This document shows positions 24,664-42,818 of a DNA stretch of 64,000 nucleotides, piece after piece. The position numbers and the translations under genes were made by a program. The stretch lies in the NCBI RefSeq assembly GCF_024054565.1, contig NZ_JAMXLR010000003.1, forward strand, positions 124,001 through 188,000, written 5' to 3'. Every line of letters begins with the position of its first letter. The first letter of the stretch is position 1. This stretch comes from Aeoliella straminimaris (GTDB lineage Bacteria > Planctomycetota > Planctomycetia > Pirellulales > Lacipirellulaceae). The notes under the pieces are model-generated. The model was not told where the DNA came from. It made no database searches and was given only the letters and a program-made list of their open reading frames with translations.

Positions 24664-25782
24664 CTAGCGGCGATCGGCTCCCCCCGTGGTGAGCACGCGG
24701 CTATCGCGGTTACCCATGTCGCTCCAGACCTGCGGATCGATATTCTCCTCGACCTGCTCGAGATGCCCGTCAACAAACAGCATCTGCACGATGCCGGAGT
24801 GCTCGCTGCCGAAGCTCAGTTGCAGGGCCTGGCACTGGGGGGTCGCACCACTGGTGCAGATGCCGCGGTTCTCGGCGCTCGAACGCTGCAAGTTGATGCC
24901 AACGCCTGTGGAGCCAAGGAACTCGGATGGATCGCTGAAGTCCTCTTCCGAGTTGCCGATCTTGGTATCAATGTCGTCGCTTCCCCCGTACCAGTGATCC
25001 TTGCGATTGCCTTCCACGGCCTCCGACTGCCGGCCGTCGGTTTCGATGGTCTCGGTGTCGGACACGGCCTCGCCAACCATCACGGTATTCGACGTACCAT
25101 CCGTGATGCGCCGCAGCGCGATGGAACCACCCTTGCGATCCTGCTTGTGATGGACACCCACCATCACGCCGTCGGCACCTTCGTATAGCGGATTCTCCTT
25201 GGGATGCTTCTTATGGCGAATCCAGAACGTGGGGTACTGCGATTGAATCAACCCCGAGGAGACCCCCAGGTACGAACCTGGCACACGCCGCATCACGAGC
25301 CAATTAACCGCCGAGCGATCGTACATATGTTCGGGCAGGTCCATCGACGGGCAGCGGAACACGGGGAGCACGGTCTCGACGAGTGCAATATTGCGGTACT
25401 CGTTGGGCAGGTCGCCCACGCTGGCGTATTCGCCATTGTTGTAGGCCCACTGATAGTTTCCACTTTCGTCCTCACCAATCGTGAGGTGCGAAAACAGGGA
25501 GCCTTGCTCCAGGTGAGGCAAGATAAATGCCGACCATGCACTGCCTTCGCCCAGGTAGGTGCCCGGCGGCAACACTCCCCGGGTCGACTCGTAATTCAAA
25601 GCGGCCAAGCCGATTTGCTTGAGGTTGTTGCTGCACTGGGTGCGGCGGGCGGCCTCGCGGGCTGCCTGCACCGCCGGCAGCAACAAAGCTACCAGGATTC
25701 CGATGATGGCGATCACCACCAGCAGTTCGACCAGGGTAAAGGCCGCCTTGCGACCTGTGCTTCCGTTATCTTGGTTGGTCAT
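24664..25782 (-). CDS. DUF1559 prepilin-like protein
   Basis: A 372-aa planctomycete pseudopilin. The N-terminus [20 protein letters not shown] is a type-IV prepilin cleavage and transmembrane motif (cleavage after the residue before Phe), followed by [27 protein letters not shown]. The globular DUF1559 domain ends with [18 protein letters not shown], the family's C-terminal motif. These proteins are expanded in planctomycetes; they are presumably displayed by a type-II/IV-like system. The ATG at 25782 has GGAG nearby and starts just before the prepilin motif. It follows the PEP-CTERM polyprotein gene on the same strand. Confidence 0.92.
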
Positions 25783-25930
25783 TGCTACTCCATAGCCTCG
25801 ATTTGCCAGCCGTTTGGTTAACATGTTTATTCCGTCTGCCTAGCGCTTGCTCCGCTCGGGCCAAGCGATTCTACGCGCACTCCGCCGATCTCACTTGACC
25901 GCCAGCGCAAAACATTGGGCGACCTGCCGG

Positions 25931-28900
25931 CTAGCGGGCCACCGGTCGTCGTATCCTGCCCCACACGAGCGTCACCGTGGCGGCAAAACCCACCAGCACG
26001 GTGGTCGATGGCTCGGGCACTTGGGTCGACGAAATCAACCGCATCGCGAAGGCCCCTGCAGCGGGGTTGGCGTTGTTCAGGATTGCCCAGTCTTCCAGAT
26101 CGACTTTGCCGTTGTAGTTGAAATCGCCCAGCGCCCGCGTCGACAGATCTCCCACCAACCGGCTGGTCACCGACTCGTCGAACGGATCGATCGACTGCAA
26201 GCGATTCTCGAACAACCAGTTCGACACAAACAACGACGCATCGGCCTCGCTGACCATGTCGTCGCCGTTGAGGTCGCCGTCCACGGCCGGGGCAAATGCT
26301 TGGGCGTAGCCGTTATCGCGTTGAAATACGTACTCGCCCCAGTCGTTTAGTTGGTTATTACCAATGCCGTCGAGGTTGTCGTTGTCGTTCAACCCCATGA
26401 CGAACATCTCGAGGTCGTCTACTACCCCGTGGAAGTAGAAGTCGTCCTCAGGCGTGCTGCTGCCAAGGTTGCGGTCCAGCACCTCGGCATCGGTCCGGGC
26501 ACCAACGTATAGCGGGCTGGTGTCCAGGGCGGCGATGTTGGTGAAAAGGTCGCCCTCGCCGATGTTTACCACCGTTTCGATGGCATAGTTGCCAAAACCG
26601 ACCGCTTTGGCCACGCCGTCGACGTAGAGAATCGAGCCATTGCCCGGCCCGCGTGGTCTAACCACCTCCAGATGGTACCACTGGTCGTCTACCGCGGTGA
26701 CATCGGTGGTGTAGTCGCCGGGAGTGATCTCCGGCTCGCCCACGTTCAAAACGTCGTCGTCGGTGCCCAACACGCCATCGTCACCGGGAAGCACCTCGAT
26801 GTCGATGTCGAACTCGCTCGCGTAACGCATGGTGAACTTGCCTTCGTTGTCGATGAACACGCCATGTTGCTGGCTATCCATCACAATGTGCTGTTCGCCA
26901 GCGGCTACGTCGGTCGGTTTGACCCACAGGTCAAAGCCGCGGTCGTTGATGCGGAAGAAGTTCAGCGTTCCGCCCGGGTTCACGAGCGACGCAATCGACG
27001 AAGGCGACTGCTCGGGATAGTTGAGCGCTTCGCCAAATCCGGTTCGCAGGTACTGGCGGTCGAACGCGTTCTGGTTCAGTGCGATCCCCAAGCCACCGTT
27101 GCCGTCGGGTCGGTCGCTGGTGTCGGCATACGTGGGAAACAGATTGAAGCGTCCCTTGGCCACCAGGTCGATCAACTGATTAAAGTTGGCCTGTCCGGCG
27201 CTGTCGTAGGTGATGGTGTTACCGCTGTTGTCCGTCAGGCTCATGGCCGCTCCGGCAACTGCCCCTGGATCGTTGTCGCCAAAGCGGTAGTCGCGATCCA
27301 CGAACGGTTCGGGCGGCAACTGAGCCTTGGCAGCTGCGCCCATCATGCAGGCGATGGCCAGCACCGCGATCGACAGGGTTTTGCCCACGCGGATCCGACG
27401 CAGCAAACCACACGACACAGCAGCCACCAGCAGCACCACCGTGCCGGGCTCGGGCACTTGGGAACCAGCCACCAGATTTGACGAGGCGAACGTGACTCCG
27501 AAGTTCTCCTTCCACAGGGTGTAGTCGGCCGCGTCGACCACGCCGGCGCTGCCCCCGGTTTCGTCGCCATTGCCGCTCAGATCGGCGGTGCCACCTAGGT
27601 TGTTGCGCCACACGTTGTAGTCGGCCAGATCGACGAAACCGTCGCCATTGAAGTCGCCGTCCAGGGAAACCGATATGTAGCTCACCACCGCAGGCGCAAA
27701 TGCCGTATCGGACGAGCGGGCCAGCACCTGGCCGAACTCGTCCGTCTGCATGAACGAGTAGGCCAGCTGCAGGTCTTCGCCACCCACGAGCGTGTCGTAC
27801 AGCTTTCCAATCGACAGCGACTGCCCCGGCGCGATGACCGTTTCGCCATTGAGGAAAGCTTCGAACACCAACTCGGGGGTAGCGAGCACCGTGTTCCAAG
27901 CATCGCCAGGGCCGCTGCCACCGCTATCGACATTGCGGGCGTCGAGGTTCGAAAGCTGCCAGTCACTGGGCATCAGCGCCCCCGCTTCGCTGCTGATGGA
28001 GTAGCCAGTCAGCACCACCGGATCTTCCGATACCGAGACCAAAGCCGCTTGCCCGTTGTTCGCATTGATGTGCAGTTCCAGACTGGCGGGGGGTGGGGGT
28101 GGAACGAATCGAGTAATCGAATCGGGATGTGGTTCATGCAACAGGCTTACGGGTGGCACATAGTTGTCGGTGTTCACAATCCAACCCTCGGGCCCCTCCT
28201 GCGAATAAACCGCATCGCCCAGGTCTCTGTTTTCATCGATGGCCTCCCCCAGCACTACGCTCTCGAAGTTTTCGAACATGAGCGATCCGGTGCCACCCGA
28301 TACGGTGATATTGTCGATGGCCCACCACCAGTCGTTCGTGGCGTTAAACAGGTTGAAGCCCAGTTGCATGGTGGTGGCTGCACCCGCCGATGGCAGGCTC
28401 ACGTTGACCATCTCGTTCGGCGCGTCTTCTTTGAAGTTGGGGTCGGTCGCGTCCGAGCTCCACTGAAACACCTCGGTGGCCACGCCGTCGTAAAACACCT
28501 GAAGACTGGCGCCCTGGGTGTCTTCGGGCCGCCAACTCGAGGCGAATGTCAGACTCAGCGAACTCGGGTCGACGCCCGTCAGGTCGATCGCCGGGCTGCG
28601 CAACTGGCTGTTGAAAGTGTAGATGCCGCCGGGACCACCGATGTCGTCCCATTCGTCCGGGTCGGCAATCGCCACGACGCCCGACGCATTGGTGAACTCG
28701 GCACGCCGCTGGTTGCCGGCTACGTCCGCCCACCATTCGCGGTCGGCGAAGCCCCACTCTTCCCATTCCGTCACGCCCACACCGTCGCTCAAACGCTGGG
28801 CATGACTGTGTTCGGCTGCCAACAATAGGCTCAAGCCAACCACTGCCGTGCCAACGATCGTCAGCCCTCGGGCAGGACGGTGGCCAATGGTCCATCTCAC

Positions 28901-30343
28901 TGCCCCGGCAACCATGGCTAGCGCCATCAAGCCAAGTATCGTAGAACTGGGCTCAGGCACGACCGCACCGCTGAGCGCCGCGGCGAATGCTCCCGCTCCC
29001 AGGATGGCGTCGAACTCGCGCTGGAAAGCGACGAAGTCGCCCGCGCTCAGCTTGCCATCGTCGTTCAAGTCGCCCTTCAGATAGGCTTGGGCAGTGGTAA
29101 GCTGCGAAAGGTCCGCCTGGTCCGTGATGTCGATAAACGCGGTCCAGTCGTCGATGTCGACGGTTCCGTCGAAATTCAGGTCGAGGAACTGATACGACTG
29201 TCCGCCGTTGCCTACGAACTCCAGCAGGCCGGTAATTTGGTCGTCGCTACCTTCGACCAGGTAGTTGAACTCGATATCACGATTCTCTTCGAAGTACCGC
29301 AGCCAGACGTCTTCGCCCAATTGAATCGAGGCCCCGGCAGCCAACGTGGTGCTGCTCAGGTGCAGTTCGGACAGGTCGTTCACGTCGCCGCCCACCTGCG
29401 TGGCTTGCACCCAGTTGGAATCGGACGCCGACAGAAAGTTGGCGGCCGCCTCGTCGAACGCTCCTTCTTCGGAACGAAGAGAGTAGCCCCGCAGCTGAAC
29501 GGGGGAGCCGGTGTTGTTGAGAATGGTAACGGTGCCGTTGTCGCGGTCGAGAATGGCCTTCAACACGCCATCGGCCCCCTGGTTGTCGCCAGTGAAGACC
29601 CGCACGTTGTCGACGGCCCACCACCAGTCGTTATTGCCCTGCAGGCGGAACTCGAATTTCACACTAGAGGCACCGGCCGGAATGTCCTGCAGTTCGTAGG
29701 TCAAACTTTCGTCGTGGGCCTGATCTTTGAAGTTGGGATCGGTGGGCACCGATGTCCAGATGTCGAGCACTTCGGGGTCACCAACATTGTAAGTGGCGGT
29801 CAAGGTGGCCGTTTGCTGATCCTCGTCGAACCAGGATGAACTGAAATTCAAACGCACCGGATCGGTAACGCCAGCGATCGAGATGCTGGGCGTGACCAAC
29901 GTGGAGTCGAATACGCCATTCTCGGGCAGCAAGTCGTCTTCCGAACTTTGATCCGGGTTGCCAAAGTCGTCCCATTCGTCGGGATCGGCCACCGCGATGG
30001 TACCCACGCCGCTGACAAAGTTGGTGCGGCCCTGGTCGCCGGCAGTCTCAATCCACCACTGCTTGTCGACAAACCGCCAGCCTTCGAACTCGAGCACCCC
30101 ACTGGCGGGATCGCCCAGCGAACTGGTCAGGTTCACCTCGGTCCAACCGGCGGGACCATCCGGCCCCACGGTTTGCCAAGCGTTGCGGCTGCGGAGCTCC
30201 GATTCGAACGTCACGGTCGGCTGCAACGCGACCCCTTCGAAGTCCTCGGAAAACAGGTCAACCGCGGTGGCCGGTCGTGTGGAAAGCGCCAGCACAAAAA
30301 GTATCGGCAAGTGTACGCGTCGTGCGATCAATAGCTTCGGCAT
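25931..30343 (-). CDS. Triple PEP-CTERM polyprotein (1470 aa)
   Basis: One uninterrupted frame holding three exported modules, each with its own sorting tag. Module 1 (1-~483): signal peptide, an EDFEG...NNDWWWAVDNV beta-sandwich domain, dockerin-like repeats (DLNFDGTVDIDDW, DLNDDGKLSAGDF), VPEP at 462. Module 2 (~487-983): an internal signal peptide ending HSHA|Q at 515, another NDWWWAIDNI domain, dockerin repeats (DFNGDGFVDLADYNVW), VPEP at 963. Module 3 (~985-1470): a signal peptide ending AAKA|Q at 1007, a LamG-like domain (LYVGARTD..), dockerin repeats, VPEP at 1442 and terminal basic tail. No ATG precedes either internal signal peptide, so separate translation is unlikely. Exosortase and signal peptidase could release three proteins. 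Confidence 0.85.
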   Translation of the reverse strand: MPKLLIARRVHLPILFVLALSTRPATAVDLFSEDFEGVALQPTVTFESELRSRNAWQTVGPDGPAGWTEVNLTSSLGDPASGVLEFEGWRFVDKQWWIETAGDQGRTNFVSGVGTIAVADPDEWDDFGNPDQSSEDDLLPENGVFDSTLVTPSISIAGVTDPVRLNFSSSWFDEDQQTATLTATYNVGDPEVLDIWTSVPTDPNFKDQAHDESLTYELQDIPAGASSVKFEFRLQGNNDWWWAVDNVRVFTGDNQGADGVLKAILDRDNGTVTILNNTGSPVQLRGYSLRSEEGAFDEAAANFLSASDSNWVQATQVGGDVNDLSELHLSSTTLAAGASIQLGEDVWLRYFEENRDIEFNYLVEGSDDQITGLLEFVGNGGQSYQFLDLNFDGTVDIDDWTAFIDITDQADLSQLTTAQAYLKGDLNDDGKLSAGDFVAFQREFDAILGAGAFAAALSGAVVPEPSSTILGLMALAMVAGAVRWTIGHRPARGLTIVGTAVVGLSLLLAAEHSHAQRLSDGVGVTEWEEWGFADREWWADVAGNQRRAEFTNASGVVAIADPDEWDDIGGPGGIYTFNSQLRSPAIDLTGVDPSSLSLTFASSWRPEDTQGASLQVFYDGVATEVFQWSSDATDPNFKEDAPNEMVNVSLPSAGAATTMQLGFNLFNATNDWWWAIDNITVSGGTGSLMFENFESVVLGEAIDENRDLGDAVYSQEGPEGWIVNTDNYVPPVSLLHEPHPDSITRFVPPPPPASLELHINANNGQAALVSVSEDPVVLTGYSISSEAGALMPSDWQLSNLDARNVDSGGSGPGDAWNTVLATPELVFEAFLNGETVIAPGQSLSIGKLYDTLVGGEDLQLAYSFMQTDEFGQVLARSSDTAFAPAVVSYISVSLDGDFNGDGFVDLADYNVWRNNLGGTADLSGNGDETGGSAGVVDAADYTLWKENFGVTFASSNLVAGSQVPEPGTVVLLVAAVSCGLLRRIRVGKTLSIAVLAIACMMGAAAKAQLPPEPFVDRDYRFGDNDPGAVAGAAMSLTDNSGNTITYDSAGQANFNQLIDLVAKGRFNLFPTYADTSDRPDGNGGLGIALNQNAFDRQYLRTGFGEALNYPEQSPSSIASLVNPGGTLNFFRINDRGFDLWVKPTDVAAGEQHIVMDSQQHGVFIDNEGKFTMRYASEFDIDIEVLPGDDGVLGTDDDVLNVGEPEITPGDYTTDVTAVDDQWYHLEVVRPRGPGNGSILYVDGVAKAVGFGNYAIETVVNIGEGDLFTNIAALDTSPLYVGARTDAEVLDRNLGSSTPEDDFYFHGVVDDLEMFVMGLNDNDNLDGIGNNQLNDWGEYVFQRDNGYAQAFAPAVDGDLNGDDMVSEADASLFVSNWLFENRLQSIDPFDESVTSRLVGDLSTRALGDFNYNGKVDLEDWAILNNANPAAGAFAMRLISSTQVPEPSTTVLVGFAATVTLVWGRIRRPVAR

Positions 30344-30513: not shown

Positions 30514-32187
30514 TTAGCGACGTCGCCGGGTGGCAATGCCCAATCCGCCCAGCAGCAAGCCAAGCATGGCGATGCTGGATGGCTCGGGAACCAGGCTGGG
30601 GATGGCGCCCGACTGCACGCGGACGTTGTCGATGGCCCACCACCAGTCGTCGTTGCCCACGTAGCCGAATTCCAGCTCCAACATCGAGGCACCCGTCGTG
30701 TCGAGCAGGAAGCCAACGTCTTCGTTCACGTTGGTGCCGTGGTAGTTGGGATCCTGGCTATCGCTAACCCAGTGCAGCAGTTCAGTGGGACTGCCATCCA
30801 GGTAAGCAATCAGCGTGACTTCCTGCGAATCCTCGGGACGCCAGCTCGAGTCGAAGTCGATGGTCACAATACCTTCGGCCGAAACGTCAATCGGCGAGGT
30901 CTTCATCAGGGTCGTCAGGTCGCCTTGATCGCCGGGATCACCCAGATCGTCCCATTCGTCGCCATCGGCCACGGCCACATTGCCCGTGGCTTTGGTGAAC
31001 CCATTGCGGGTAGAACCACCCACTTCGGCCCAGAACCCCTGCTCGGCAATGCTCCACTGCTCCCACTCCAGCACGCCAAAGCCATCGTCGCCACCGCCGG
31101 CGCCGGGGGTGCCCGCGTTGTCGGTCGACCATCCTGTCGGGAAGGTGTGCGTGAAGGCGTTCTCTCGGGAGGTGGTCGGATACTCGGTGCCGAGAATACT
31201 GGTTGTGCCATCCGAGGCGGCCTCGAGCGACGAGCCGGCGGTAATGCGCTCGTTCACGCTGTCGCCCAGCGTGACGCCTTCGAAATCCTCGAACAGCTTC
31301 TGCCCAGTGCCGCCGGTGATGTCCGCCACCTCGACGTTATCGATGGCCCACCACCAGTCGTTTGCGGCGTTGGCAATCTTAAAAGATAGAGTGGCCGATG
31401 TGGCGTCGGCGGGAGCGACAAAGGCGAGCGTTCCCGAGCCTGCATCAAAGTGCTGGTCCTGGGCGTTGTCCTTGAACTCCGGATCATTCGTGCTGTTATC
31501 GGAATCCCAGGCAGCCACCTCCACCGAGGTGCCGTTGTCGAACGTGGCAACGATCTCCACCGACTGATTGTTCAAATCGACCAACGTGCCACCGAGCGCA
31601 CTGTCGTCGAACGCTTCCGGCCGCCAACTGGAGTCGAAGCCCACTCCGTGCAGGGTACCACCGTTTACCTGGAAGGAGGGAGTGATCAGAGCCGTGCTGT
31701 AGTAGCCACCATTTACGGCATCGTTCTGGCTACCCAGGTCGAAGTACTCGTCGGGATCGGCAATCGCTACCGTACCCGACGCGTTGCTGGTGGTGCCAAA
31801 CTGCGAGCGATCCTGATCGCCGGCCGCGGTGGACCAGAAGTCCAAACGGGCGAAGTTCCAGCCTTCCCATTCGTCGACCCCGTAATCGGCCAGGCCAACG
31901 CCGGGCACACCAACGGTGACGGTGGGCGCCCCCCGGTAAGTATCGACCGCCTTGTCGACGGTCCAGCCAGCGGGAGCCGTGCTGCTCCACACACCGGGAA
32001 TCGCTGAAGTGTTTGGTTCGGTCGCCACGCGTTCGGCAATCGAGGTGCCGATGCGTTCGTTGACGCTGTTGCCAAGTACGGCGCCTTCGAAATCTTCAAA
32101 AAAGATAACCTGGGCGGATGCCTTCGTGGTGTGCAAACCGAGCACCAGGGCAACTAGACAACAATACCACGCTAGATGTCGCTTCAT
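30514..32187 (-). CDS. PEP-CTERM protein with two DWWWAIDN modules
   Basis: A 557-aa exported protein. A signal peptide ends at TTKASA|Q. Two tandem copies of a beta-sandwich domain follow, each running from EDFEG...LG(N/D)SVNERI through a WEGWNF/WEQWSI motif, VAIADPDEY/VAVADGDEWDD, DSSWRPE and DPEF/DPNY to NDWWWAIDNV. The sorting tag is VPEPSSIAMLGLLLGGLGIA plus RRRR at the extreme C-terminus (533-557). PEP-CTERM tags direct proteins to an exosortase, usually linked to extracellular polysaccharide. AGAAGGAG precedes the ATG at 32187. The same domain occurs twice in the neighbouring polyprotein, so the genes share an origin. Confidence 0.9.
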   Translation of the reverse strand: MKRHLAWYCCLVALVLGLHTTKASAQVIFFEDFEGAVLGNSVNERIGTSIAERVATEPNTSAIPGVWSSTAPAGWTVDKAVDTYRGAPTVTVGVPGVGLADYGVDEWEGWNFARLDFWSTAAGDQDRSQFGTTSNASGTVAIADPDEYFDLGSQNDAVNGGYYSTALITPSFQVNGGTLHGVGFDSSWRPEAFDDSALGGTLVDLNNQSVEIVATFDNGTSVEVAAWDSDNSTNDPEFKDNAQDQHFDAGSGTLAFVAPADATSATLSFKIANAANDWWWAIDNVEVADITGGTGQKLFEDFEGVTLGDSVNERITAGSSLEAASDGTTSILGTEYPTTSRENAFTHTFPTGWSTDNAGTPGAGGGDDGFGVLEWEQWSIAEQGFWAEVGGSTRNGFTKATGNVAVADGDEWDDLGDPGDQGDLTTLMKTSPIDVSAEGIVTIDFDSSWRPEDSQEVTLIAYLDGSPTELLHWVSDSQDPNYHGTNVNEDVGFLLDTTGASMLELEFGYVGNDDWWWAIDNVRVQSGAIPSLVPEPSSIAMLGLLLGGLGIATRRRR

Positions 32188-32613
32188 GAGTTTCTCCTTC
32201 TCACACCAAATTTCAGAGCCAAGACAGGTGAACTTCGACAGCCAAGGCAGACAATCATTGAGAGATAGACCAGCCGCCCCCACAGATTCCGCCCCAACGG
32301 ATGCGTGTGATGGTGCCGACCGACTATGAAGAAAACATGATGACTTCGGTCCATTCGCAGAAGATTCACGAAAAGCAACGGAGGACGAGGTCTCCTTTTG
32401 ACACTCTGCGCGACTCACGCGAAATCTTCACACACTTGCTGCAAGCAGTTGCATCCTGTGTTTTCTCACTCGAGGTGCGCGTGCGCTTGCGGTCCAGGAA
32501 TCTGCGCAATAAGGTACCCGCAGGCGGGATACACCGTGGTTACACTCGGTGCAAGCTCGAGGCACCCCCCTTGCGAATGATCGACTGCCCCCAAGAACGA
32601 GGAACCGATTCCT
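32188..32613. other. Divergent gene-free stretch of 426 bp
   Basis: It separates the divergent PEP-CTERM gene (minus) and phnZ-like gene (plus) and must hold both promoters. Short frames here have no coding character. I see no RNA gene or strong palindrome. Confidence 0.5.
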
Positions 32614-36817: not shown

Positions 36818-39800
36818 TTACTTTTTCCGACGTGCCGCGGTAAGGCCCAACAGGCCGCACGCGCCCAGTAGCAGCCCGAGCGAAGTGGGTTCGGGAACCG
36901 CCAGCATGGCGGCCGATGGGGTACCGACGGCGCCAAAATTGTCGCGCCAGCGGGTGTAGTCGTCGCCGTCGACGCCCTCGGTCGGATCGTTAGGCAGGGC
37001 CGTCGACGAACCCAGATGGTTGCGCCACACGGTGTAGTCGGCGATGTCGACCATGCCATCGTCGTTGTAGTCGCCAAACAGCAGTTGGGGAGCCACTCCG
37101 GTATACATAACACGGGCGTCGTACACGTCGCCGTCGGAGTTCATCCATTGCAGCACCACGTCTTCGGATCGCAACAAGGCGTTATAGCCGGCGCCGAGAG
37201 ACAGCCCCGTTGTGCCGGCAGCCAGTGTCGACCCATCGGACCAGTAGCCCTCGACCAGGCGGGATTCACTTGACCCGCCGCCAATCTCCCAACCATTGCC
37301 GGTGCCGTTGCCCAGCGGGAACGACGCGGTGTCGCCTCCAATGCCATCGAATTCGCCTGGCAGCAACCCACCACCGGCGCTGCTGATGGTGATATTCCGC
37401 ATCTCGATGCCCGTGGCGCCCGCTTCGTTGTTGCTGAGCGTCATCTCGCCGCTGGCCCGGTCGATCTTCAGCACCACATCGCCAGGCCCGGAGAGCAGAC
37501 GAAACTCGTGCCCCCCAATATTGTTAGTGGGGCGGCTGGTGGACACTTCCGAAGCCGTGAGCCGTACGGCAACGTAGCGCCCCGCGTGCGTGCCGGAAAG
37601 CGTGAAGGGATACAATTTACTGTTGAGTAAACGATCGTCCGTAGCGCCGAGGCTGAAACTCGCGTCGGGCGAGGTTCCCGGCAGAACGCCGCCGAAGTCG
37701 GAGTTGCTAAACCAGAACTCAAACTTGCCAACACGGTCGGCCGTCGGATCGGCACCCGATCGCTGAGCGTAGGCAAACCAGTTGGCCGACACCGAGGAAC
37801 CGTAATCCATGAACAAGGTCATCGGCCCCACTCCGTCGCCCGCGTACTGGTCGAGATCCGCGGTCAGATCATTGTAGTCCAACAGGAACAGCTCGGTGTT
37901 GATATTGTTGCCTTCGTCCAGGTAGGTGTCGTCGAACAGCTTCTCGGGCCCCTGGGTCTCTTGGTCGTTAGCCTGTCCTTCGGGAATGGTAATCGAGGGC
38001 AACCCTCCCACTACCGAAAACTCCTGTGCCGCAGCGTTATCGGTGGTCGCCAACACACCCACTATCAACACGGCAGCCGTCGCCAAGGCCGCGGCCGCAC
38101 GACGCCGCATCTGCACCATGCCCAGCGCGGCAGCCACTGCCACCAAGGCCACCGAACTCGGTTCCGGCACGGCCGTGCCGAACAAAGCCGCCATGCCGCC
38201 GGCCGAGGTGACCAGCATCTGGAAATCGTACTGATCGCTATCGAAATCGCCATCCAGATCGCCACCAAGGTAGGCCTGCGCGGCAGTGGCATCGAGGTAA
38301 TCGCTGCCGTAGCCCTGGCGAAACACTTGCCAGTCGTTGAAGTCGACCACGCCATCGCCGGTGTAGTCGCCCGCAACAATCTCGTCGCCAACGTACTCGA
38401 CGCCGTCCGCGATGGCGGCTCCGTTTTCGTCGAGCAACTGGAAGATCAGGTCTTCGTAGCTGCTGGGAGCAATCGACCACAGGTTGCCCAAACTATAGGT
38501 GGCGCCGGCCGCCAGGGTGATGCCGTTGTCGTCGCCGCCCGCGGTATCGGCTTCGCTCACCTTCGCCTCGCTGGAGTCTGGGTCTTCGAGCCAAGTGTCG
38601 CCCGGATCGCCGCCGCTCGCCGCGACCGATTGCCATCCAGCGATGTTAATGATCTGCGAGCTCGTCGACGATAGGGAGTATCCCGAGAACGTGACATCCT
38701 GGTCGGCACGGATCATCACTTCGCCACTGCTCCGATCGACAACCAGCGTGGCCGGATCGTCGATGAAGAACTCCACTTCGGCAATTTGCATCGAGTTCGT
38801 GGCGCCCGCATTGCGGAGCGTGGGAAACACCATCCGGTACGAACTGAACGCCCCGGCTGTGTTATTGACCTCTACGATTGGCCCATTGGCGGTCCGGTCG
38901 GTCGGCAGTTCCACCTCGCCCGAATCGATGAGTGTCCAGTTTTCTTCGTTCCCGGCGCTGTTGTCGGTGGAAGTGATCGGATCGTTGGTGCCGTACAGTT
39001 CCCAGGAGGTCGGGTCGCGATCGGGAATATCGTTGGCGGTGGTAAGCTGGAAGCTGGTGACCGCGTACGATCCTTTGGAGGGCGTCACAATGAAACCGGA
39101 ATTTTCTTTGCCGAAGTTCAGGTACTTGGTGCCGTAGTTCTGATCGATGGCCTGGGGCGCCTCTTGAGTTCCACCACCCGAACCGGTTCGACTCTGGGAC
39201 GTATAGTCGACGTCGCGGATCGAGATGATCGGATTACCAAACGAAAGCAAGTTCGAGCCCGTGCCATCCAGCGAGCTGTAAAACCCGATATCGGCCAGCT
39301 GCGTCAGGTTCTGGCCCGGATCCTTCATGCTGGGCCATACCATCTTGTACGAAGCGTAGGAGACCGCATTGCTGAATCCCACCGGTTCGGCGATCGTTTG
39401 CCGGGCTGAGGGTAGCGCCAGGTCGCCCATCGAGATTAGCGTCCAGTCTTCATCGCGGCCGTTGCTGGCCTCGGTGCTGGTGATTGGATCGTTGGTGCCG
39501 TACAGCAAGTACTCCGCGGGGTCGCGTCCCTCGGCATCGTTAGCCGTAGTCATCACGAAGCTTTGCACGATGGACGAAGAGGAAGGCGTTACGATGAAGC
39601 CGGCATTGTCGCCACCACGGTTCAAGGTCTTGGTACCCGAGTCGCCATCCAGCAGCAGGTCGGCCAATTGGCCATCACGCACATCGCTCCCAGTGCTGGC
39701 ATCGAGGTCAATCGCCAGGATGGGGTCGCCCGGCGAGAGAATGTTAAGCGCCGCGGCCTCTCTGGCCGCCAGCAGCACGGTAAGGGCCGCGATCAGACGC

Positions 39801-41230: not shown

Positions 41231-42301
41231 CTACCGCCGGCTGTACTCTTTGATCTCGCCACCATCGTTGCGATGGCCCATCTGGCGGAACACTTGCGGG
41301 TCGACGTCGTAGTTCACGACGCTTACCGAGCTATCGCAATTCGAGAACAGGCAACCGCCAGGATGTGCGCTGCCGAAGGCTTCTCGGGCAGCCAGGTCGG
41401 TGAGCGAGTAGGTTTCGTCGGCGTCGCTGCGAGGAATGTGATCCGCGTTGCGTCCGTCGTAGTAGGTCGATCGCACGGTGTCGTCCTGAAAACCTGTGTA
41501 CATCGACCAGTCGTCGGCCTTGAAGTAGACTTCGCCCGTGTACGATTGCACTGGCACCCATCGTTCACCGAGTGCGATGGTGTTGCTCAAGCCATCGGTT
41601 ATCTGGCGAAACTTCACCGCCGTGCCGCAGAACGTCACGCCGTTGAATTCCGATACTCGAGGGGGAAATCCGGCCGGCAACGAAGAGTAGTTACCGGGTG
41701 AGATCTCTTGGCACTTCTGGTCGTAGCCGGTGGCGTCGCCCACGTTCGAGGCATAGTCGCTACGAGCGCCCTGAGGTTGGCCGTACGAAATCACTCCTCC
41801 CTTGCCGTCGCCAGATCTGGCGGTCCACCCACTCGAGGAATAGGGGCTCATACCACTTTGCGGGTACGGGCCACCTTTGCGGCGCGAGGGACAGTTCAGC
41901 ACGCCCACCGGCGTGGCATCGCGTTCGGCCAGCAGTACACCACGCGCAGCACCCGTGGCGCCGCTACCGGTGTCGTACAGTGCCTGCTCCTCGATATAAG
42001 GCAGCAGTGCGAAGATCCAACCGCCGGGCTGAGTGTGATCGAGCCCTCGGTCGGGGTCGCCCGTCCAGTTTCCTCGCCATCCCGAGGAGGGCAAACGTCC
42101 CGTGGCCGACTCGAGATTGGCCATCGCCAGGGTGAGGTTCTTGAGATTACTGGTGCAATTGGCGCGGCGAGCGGCCTCGCGTGCCGCCTGCACTGCCGGT
42201 AACAGCAGAGCCACCAGAATGCCAATGATGGCAATGACAACCAACAGCTCAACCAGCGTAAATCCATTTCGGACCGATGGTTTCATTCGGACGAGTCGCA
42301 T
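41231..42301 (-). CDS. DUF1559 prepilin-like protein
   Basis: A 356-aa pseudopilin. [20 protein letters not shown] is the prepilin motif and membrane helix, followed by [28 protein letters not shown]. The C-terminal portion has HPGGCLFSNCDSSV, where the family usually has H-DG (here N-C-D), and ends DPQVFRQMGHRNDGG. AAGGA lies before the ATG at 42301; a GTG directly before it is an alternative. This gene and the one at 24664-25782 bracket the PEP-CTERM region on the same strand. Confidence 0.91.
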   Translation of the reverse strand: MRLVRMKPSVRNGFTLVELLVVIAIIGILVALLLPAVQAAREAARRANCTSNLKNLTLAMANLESATGRLPSSGWRGNWTGDPDRGLDHTQPGGWIFALLPYIEEQALYDTGSGATGAARGVLLAERDATPVGVLNCPSRRKGGPYPQSGMSPYSSSGWTARSGDGKGGVISYGQPQGARSDYASNVGDATGYDQKCQEISPGNYSSLPAGFPPRVSEFNGVTFCGTAVKFRQITDGLSNTIALGERWVPVQSYTGEVYFKADDWSMYTGFQDDTVRSTYYDGRNADHIPRSDADETYSLTDLAAREAFGSAHPGGCLFSNCDSSVSVVNYDVDPQVFRQMGHRNDGGEIKEYSRR

Positions 42302-42818
42302 CACGAGTCCTTATCTTTGCCATGCTGCCAAATGGCAGGAGTTTGCCAACTGCAGCACGTGCGGACGAACGCTACTCGCCGCCCGGCTTGAAGCGAAACT
42401 AGGTTACAGCTCCAAGGTGCCTGCCGCCTCCATCCGAAACACAAGCCGGGCGGCACGCCCTGGAGCATGGAGAAGCCTTCCCCAACATCTGCTAATACCA
42501 CCAAGCGCCGTTTTGTGGCGGTTGACTTTGAAAGATTTTCATCCCCTGCAGGGAACCGAGGGCTGCGGCTCCAGAACAGCGGGTAGGTGCAGATTCTGGA
42601 CGCCCTCCCGCCCGCCTGCCTTCGCCCACCCGACGCCCGGACGGTTGGCGCTTCGCACAAAGAAGGACAAGCTGGGAACCATTGCGAAGTCGCCGTGGGC
42701 TACCGACGCGGGGAAATCGGTTTCCAGCAACTAGAAATCGGCAAGTCGACGCTGCTTCACGGCGACCGACCCAGCGGAGTGGAGTGCCAACCGAGTGGAG
42801 CGACCTCGCGCGTGCCAG
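42302..42818. other. Gene-free stretch of 517 bp
   Basis: It lies upstream of the DUF1559 gene and downstream of the GYF_2 gene on the minus strand. Frames are short. I recognise no riboswitch or RNA gene in it, though it is long for a promoter region and GC-rich. Confidence 0.45.

Follow-up and report, generated by a model that had tools for sequence, protein, structure and literature searches.

Background

Surface proteins of the PEP-CTERM/exosortase system (TIGR02595, PF07589) carry an N-terminal signal peptide and a tripartite sorting tag made of a PEP motif, a membrane helix and a basic cluster, and they occur in genomes that encode an exosortase. The known PEP-CTERM tags lie at the extreme C terminus, with a median of three residues beyond them (PMC1569441). 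Here, we describe a gene of Aeoliella straminimaris (Planctomycetota, Pirellulales, Lacipirellulaceae) located in a window of 64,000 nucleotides (contig NZ_JAMXLR010000003.1, positions 124,001 to 188,000). This gene shares the tripartite tag, the N-terminal signal and the genomic exosortase with the proteins of that system, but unlike in those proteins, the tag recurs within the frame, and the next signal peptide follows directly after it. The feature belongs to the PEP-CTERM/exosortase system, yet it departs systematically from the rule of a C-terminal tag.

The strongest precedent for the cutting of an internal tag comes from archaea. HVO_0405 of Haloferax volcanii is a fusion of two once-independent genes, and its central tripartite tag is cut in an archaeosortase (ArtA)-dependent manner (PMC7157517). 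The likeness lies in the internal tripartite tag, which in HVO_0405 is cut by a relative of exosortase. However, HVO_0405 is one strain-specific archaeal fusion with one internal site, whereas here dozens of genes per genome are concerned, each internal tag is joined to a new signal peptide and a frame may hold up to ten units. In bacteria, processing has been proposed for a single protein with an internal MYXO-CTERM tag, MXAN_5598 of Myxococcus xanthus (PMC11980579). That rare case differs in its tag and its protease, and its second half is an outer-membrane barrel rather than a tagged surface protein. In the cytochrome b/c1 precursor FbcH of Bradyrhizobium, signal peptidase cleaves a bacterial polyprotein at a signal peptide within the chain; unlike the gene described here, FbcH comprises two respiratory subunits released by one cut, with no sorting tag and no exosortase. 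The envelope polyproteins of alphaviruses and flaviviruses consist of a series of stop-transfer helices, short cytoplasmic turns and internal signals, with a cut on the outer face. This resemblance is one of analogy only, with no common descent suggested, and the second protease would here be an exosortase.

An earlier reading of the window, made from its letters and open frames (the sequence-only reading), knew of no described PEP-CTERM polyprotein, and our text search of the literature for PEP-CTERM together with polyprotein likewise found no paper. The feature is real and recurrent and, as far as the searched literature shows, undescribed.

Three PEP-CTERM precursors in one frame

The minus-strand frame at 25931-30343 comprises 1470 open codons, with VPEP motifs at residues 462, 963 and 1442. 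The Pfam model PF07589 matched three separate stretches of the product above its cut-off (E 3.7e-09), and TIGR02595 also scored above cut-off. Only the tag at 1442 lies at the extreme C terminus, while those at 462 and 963 are internal. Both internal junctions show the same order of VPEP, membrane helix, basic loop, second hydrophobic stretch and AxA. Junction 1 reads VPEPSSTILGLMALAMVAGAV-RWTIGHRPAR-GLTIVGTAVVGLSLLLAAEHSHA and junction 2 reads VPEPGTVVLLVAAVSCGLL-RRIRVGK-TLSIAVLAIACMMGAAAKA, with Q as the first residue past each predicted cut. The frame contains three units, each running from signal to tag, and hence several self-sufficient proteins. The open frame, the motif positions and the Pfam stretches confirm the claim of the sequence-only reading that three PEP-CTERM precursors are fused in one frame, and all of its coordinates were right, including the predicted cleavage sites SHA, ending at 515, and AKA, ending at 1007.

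Pfam detected one type I dockerin domain (Dockerin_1) in the product and a weak LTD match, under the cut-off, in unit 1. The AlphaFold model was poor (mean predicted local distance difference test score, pLDDT, 58); it placed helices at 465-487 and 494-505, where they were expected, which is no evidence of topology. In this low-confidence model, residues 28-254 aligned with 7uaf_D (VIA-align 2, Z 13.1, 3.1 A over 150 residues) and appear to resemble the beta-sandwich domains of the MAM, CBM and ephrin-binding families.

We consider it probable that the three-unit gene encodes one precursor, from which signal peptidase and exosortase release separate surface proteins. In the proposed mechanism, one translation from the ATG at 30343 would produce three complete PEP-CTERM precursors in one chain. 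The first signal peptide would export unit 1 through the Sec channel, and the PEP helix would serve as a stop-transfer sequence, its basic end being left in the cytoplasm. The basic loop (about 7-10 residues) would also form the n-region of the signal that follows, unit 2 would be exported, and the cycle would repeat onward. Signal peptidase I would cut after each AxA and exosortase at each PEP motif. The three units would thereby be freed as mature surface proteins, equal in amount, with short helical hairpins remaining in the membrane.

The host genome contains two exosortase loci above the Pfam cut-off, and TIGR02602 is above cut-off in both. At one of the two, on contig 91 of this genome (L259:4571-9787, + strand), an exosortase domain is N-terminal in a 1739-codon frame and is followed by PrsT-like TPR repeats; two XrtA/PEP-CTERM system components are fused in this frame.

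Junction anatomy and constraint

A total of 123 distinct junctions were compared. Their loops have a median length of 9 residues (range 2-34) and a mean of 4.2 K/R against 0.1 D/E, and by the positive-inside rule a loop so rich in K/R and poor in D/E is cytoplasmic. In 84% of the junctions, an [AV]xA motif is found at a distance of 10-20 residues from where the second core begins; the corresponding share is 15% for helices of polytopic proteins encoded at the same loci, and 20% for the PEP helices. The junctions thus possess the features of signal peptidase I substrates, namely a basic n-region, a hydrophobic core and small residues at -3 and -1. The charge pattern and the AxA placement are in keeping with the sequence-only reading, in which the basic tail of one tag would double as the n-region for the signal after it.

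In an alignment of four orthologues of the three-unit gene, identity was 0.21 and 0.28 at the junctions, 0.23 in the N-terminal signal and 0.30 in the C-terminal tag, while the unit bodies reached 0.44-0.61. The junctions therefore diverge at the pace of the terminal signals, yet they remain open. The ratio of nonsynonymous to synonymous divergence (dN/dS) at the junctions was about 0.3-0.4 in two congeneric pairs (0.38/1.40 and 0.40/0.93), values that are rough because dS is near saturation. A low identity like that of the terminal signals, together with dN/dS <1, indicates that the junctions are translated and constrained mainly in physical character, which fits parts that are discarded.

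Units, their inheritance and free-standing relatives

The last unit is, in 32 of the 33 three-unit frames, one LamG-type unit that opens with DRxYxxGD, a motif starting 3-14 residues past the predicted signal-peptidase cut. This unit never occurs in two-unit frames, and it also stands as a separate gene in several loci. G003, a congeneric genome closed in one contig, encodes the nearest relatives of units 1 and 3 in separate, adjacent genes at locus L087; both genes have a signal and a tag of their own, and a DUF1559 gene comes after them, as it does in the window. The identity of these relatives to units 1 and 3 is 38-40%, at which level they may be paralogues rather than orthologues; they indicate that the units can stand alone and are not proof of a recent split. 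Related units were found both fused and as separate genes.

The pairwise distances of units 1, 2 and 3 are correlated (Mantel r 0.80-0.84, 32 polyproteins), indicating that the units have been inherited together. Connected-component clustering of the units was uninformative, since nearly all units are connected through the dockerin and lamin-tail-like regions that they share. Single PEP-CTERM genes often stand in tandem on one strand, with gaps ranging from overlap to ~150 bases, and are the obvious raw material for fusion. The other polyproteins contain LamG, dockerin, F5/8 type C and beta-helix domains. On the basis of the carbohydrate-binding-like domains and LamG, it is plausible that the units bind surfaces or exopolysaccharide and act in adhesion or in the matrix.

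The evidence from junctions and units also bears on the possibility that the product stays whole, as a membrane protein of several spans whose three outside domains are tethered by uncut hairpins, the AxA and VPEP sites being unused or only one kind of them being used. We regard this as unlikely. Although the topology would be alike without cutting and the processing itself is deduced, the PEP motifs and AxA are retained at junctions where nearly all else diverges, the AxA placement is four to five times commoner than in ordinary membrane helices, and both the conserved motif of unit 3, beginning just past the predicted cut, and the units existing elsewhere as separate genes argue for release.

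Translation starts at the junctions

If translation began anew at GTG, ATG or TTG codons in the junctions, by internal initiation or reinitiation, each unit would arise as a precursor of its own and the long frame would represent overlapping genes. The sequence-only reading had considered reinitiation unlikely because of the lack of an ATG. It is correct that no ATG lies between a PEP helix and the next core in this gene, but an in-frame GTG was overlooked at both junctions, Val482 (28900-28898) and Val986 (27388-27386), and each could begin a plausible signal peptide. The absence of ATG alone is therefore insufficient against reinitiation in this gene, and the evidence of the family serves instead.

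The stretch searched began four codons upstream of the first basic residue and ended where the core starts, and 39 of the 123 junctions had no ATG, GTG or TTG in it, so that internal starts are not obligatory across the family. ATG and GTG made up 1.6% and 1.7% of the loop codons, which are background rates, and Shine-Dalgarno-like motifs were not enriched before the candidate starts of the 123 junctions (7%, against 5% at other codons). In addition, GTG482 and GTG986 are not kept in the orthologues. Synthesis of the units as separate precursors is thus very improbable, even though an ATG is fittingly placed in some paralogue junctions, and as a general mechanism reinitiation is ruled out by the start-free junctions and the background start rates. 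Some long-loop junctions carry an ATG at a possible former start (MSTMQKQLYSLNS, MKSCKNVQG; in L021:7636-11844, L018:7215-11492 and L023:8345-12547, all on the - strand) and resemble recent fusions that have retained a start codon.

Distribution in the host genome, the family and the phylum

Searching the host genome with the 1470-residue protein gave 181 matches, many of them in open frames of 1300-1650 codons. At least 28 polyprotein genes (16 two-unit, 11 three-unit and 1 four-unit) with at least 41 junctions were found in ~0.73 Mb of the genome picked by similarity to the protein, so that the count is a lower bound. Such a recurrence goes far beyond chance. A junction profile run over the whole host genome separated two groups, full-length matches in long open frames and short single-tag matches near a stop.

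Orthologues of the three-unit gene are present in three other genera of the family, at 68%, 50% and 44% identity. Whereas stops or frameshifts in close genomes would have spoken against a fused gene, the whole frame is open in all three, and closed genomes keep such frames open as well: G003 has about ten three-unit frames, and further ones occur in Lacipirellula limnantheis I41 (NZ_CP036339.1). In G003, a five-unit polyprotein (L241:4255-8790, + strand) has first junctions that are near-identical repeats, which suggests a recent tandem duplication of the whole cassette within the frame. An error of assembly or sequencing, in which lost stops merged adjacent genes, has next to no probability. 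The host assembly does consist of 98 draft contigs, and tandems of closely spaced single-unit PEP-CTERM genes on one strand are frequent, but the loops are shorter than a lost stop and spacer would leave, the architecture recurs in orthologues of several genera, and the two closed genomes refute it.

Across 44 Lacipirellulaceae genomes, full-length junctions in long open frames were found in most genera. Other Pirellulales families gave further cases, and the scan of the order counted 6 of 297 genomes; this figure is a lower bound, since the E 1e-9 threshold applied with the initial junction profile was too strict and just 23 candidates were scored in each genome. The extreme case comes from a metagenome-assembled genome of another Pirellulales family, where a frame of at least 2531 codons holds ten PEP-CTERM motifs. 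This frame (L234:3-7595, + strand, contig 91 of G039), the largest found, ends at the contig edge, and its units are ~220-320 residues long. In the rest of the phylum, only two clear cases appeared among 392 sampled genomes (17 candidates scored per genome; a lower bound), and 25 genomes of Verrucomicrobia, Phycisphaerae and related groups with related proteins yielded at most one candidate. Although the wide scans give lower bounds, the trait looks like an innovation of the Pirellulales that is strongest in the Lacipirellulaceae. The arrangement of VPEP, helix, basic residues, hydrophobic stretch and AxA in mid-protein, when searched for beyond this gene, was thus found in dozens of genes of the Lacipirellulaceae. 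What had been taken for an unusual single gene stands as to its architecture but not as to its rarity, since it is lineage-wide, with up to ten units.

Weight of the evidence

The view that the three-unit gene encodes a polyprotein precursor is supported by the frames open across genera, the closed genomes, the charge pattern and AxA placement, the background rates of start codons, junction dN/dS <1 and the free-standing homologues. Several points weigh against it. The membrane topology, both cuts and the equal amounts are predictions, the cuts being read from sequence; a few PEP-CTERM regions with dramatically longer tails were considered possibly non-functional by Haft in 2006 (PMC1569441); given the range of loop lengths, some junctions may not work; and with a GTG at both junctions, internal initiation may contribute to a minor extent in the three-unit gene.

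Features of the window

The features of the three-unit gene and of other genes in the window are collected in Table 1. DUF1559-like prepilin-type genes (in the window, 24664-25824 and 41231-42304) lie on the same strand within 3 kb of 16 of the 28 polyprotein genes of the host, a raw count with no control rate.

Table 1. Coordinates in the window of the three-unit gene, its parts and other genes
Feature	Position	Strand	Basis or remarks
Three-unit PEP-CTERM polyprotein	25931..30343	-	1470 aa, ATG start at 30343; sequence, Pfam, open orthologues G006/G004/G008
N-terminal signal peptide, residues 1-27	30263..30343	-	predicted cut after ATA27; n-, h- and c-regions by inspection
Unit 1, residues 28-461	28961..30262	-	MAM/CBM/ephrin-LBD-like beta-sandwich (28-254), lamin-tail-like domain, dockerin-like region
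Junction 1, first half	28868..28960	-	VPEP 462-465, membrane helix 466-482, basic loop 483-492
Junction 1, second half	28799..28867	-	hydrophobic stretch 493-510, predicted cut after SHA515
Unit 2, residues 516-962	27458..28798	-	beta-sandwich family as in unit 1, then lamin-tail-like and dockerin-like regions
Junction 2, first half	27380..27457	-	VPEP 963-966, membrane helix 967-981, basic loop 982-988
Junction 2, second half	27323..27379	-	hydrophobic stretch 989-1004, predicted cut after AKA1007
Unit 3, residues 1008-1441	26021..27322	-	LamG-like, opens with DRDYRFGD, ends in Dockerin_1 domain
C-terminal PEP-CTERM signal, residues 1442-1470	25934..26020	-	sequence, Pfam
Second PEP-CTERM polyprotein of the window, two units, 1000 aa	36818..39820	-	
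Junction of the 36818-39820 gene, residues 551-598	38027..38170	-	VPEP-helix-RRR-hydrophobic-AAA
Single-unit PEP-CTERM gene, 634 aa, upstream of the three-unit gene	30514..32418	-	
DUF1559 gene, prepilin N-methylation motif, downstream of the three-unit gene	24664..25824	-	frequent polyprotein neighbour

Implications

PEP-CTERM-type tags have hitherto been treated as C-terminal by definition, and the few such proteins known to have long tails were put aside as possibly lacking function (PMC1569441). Should the polyprotein reading be true, exosortase must work at internal sites and signal peptidase at internal signals, repeatedly in one chain, and automatic annotation lists single proteins of 900-2500 residues that possibly do not exist as such in the cell. 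These genes would also offer a natural size-shift assay for a bacterial exosortase, as HVO_0405 does for archaeosortase. We think it likely that this lineage has turned sorting into a polyprotein system, in which dozens of genes per genome, with two to ten cassettes each, would be cut by two membrane proteases on the outer face to give products in a fixed ratio, as a bacterial counterpart of the viral envelope polyproteins. One bacterial family would then routinely make matched sets of surface proteins by means of polyproteins.

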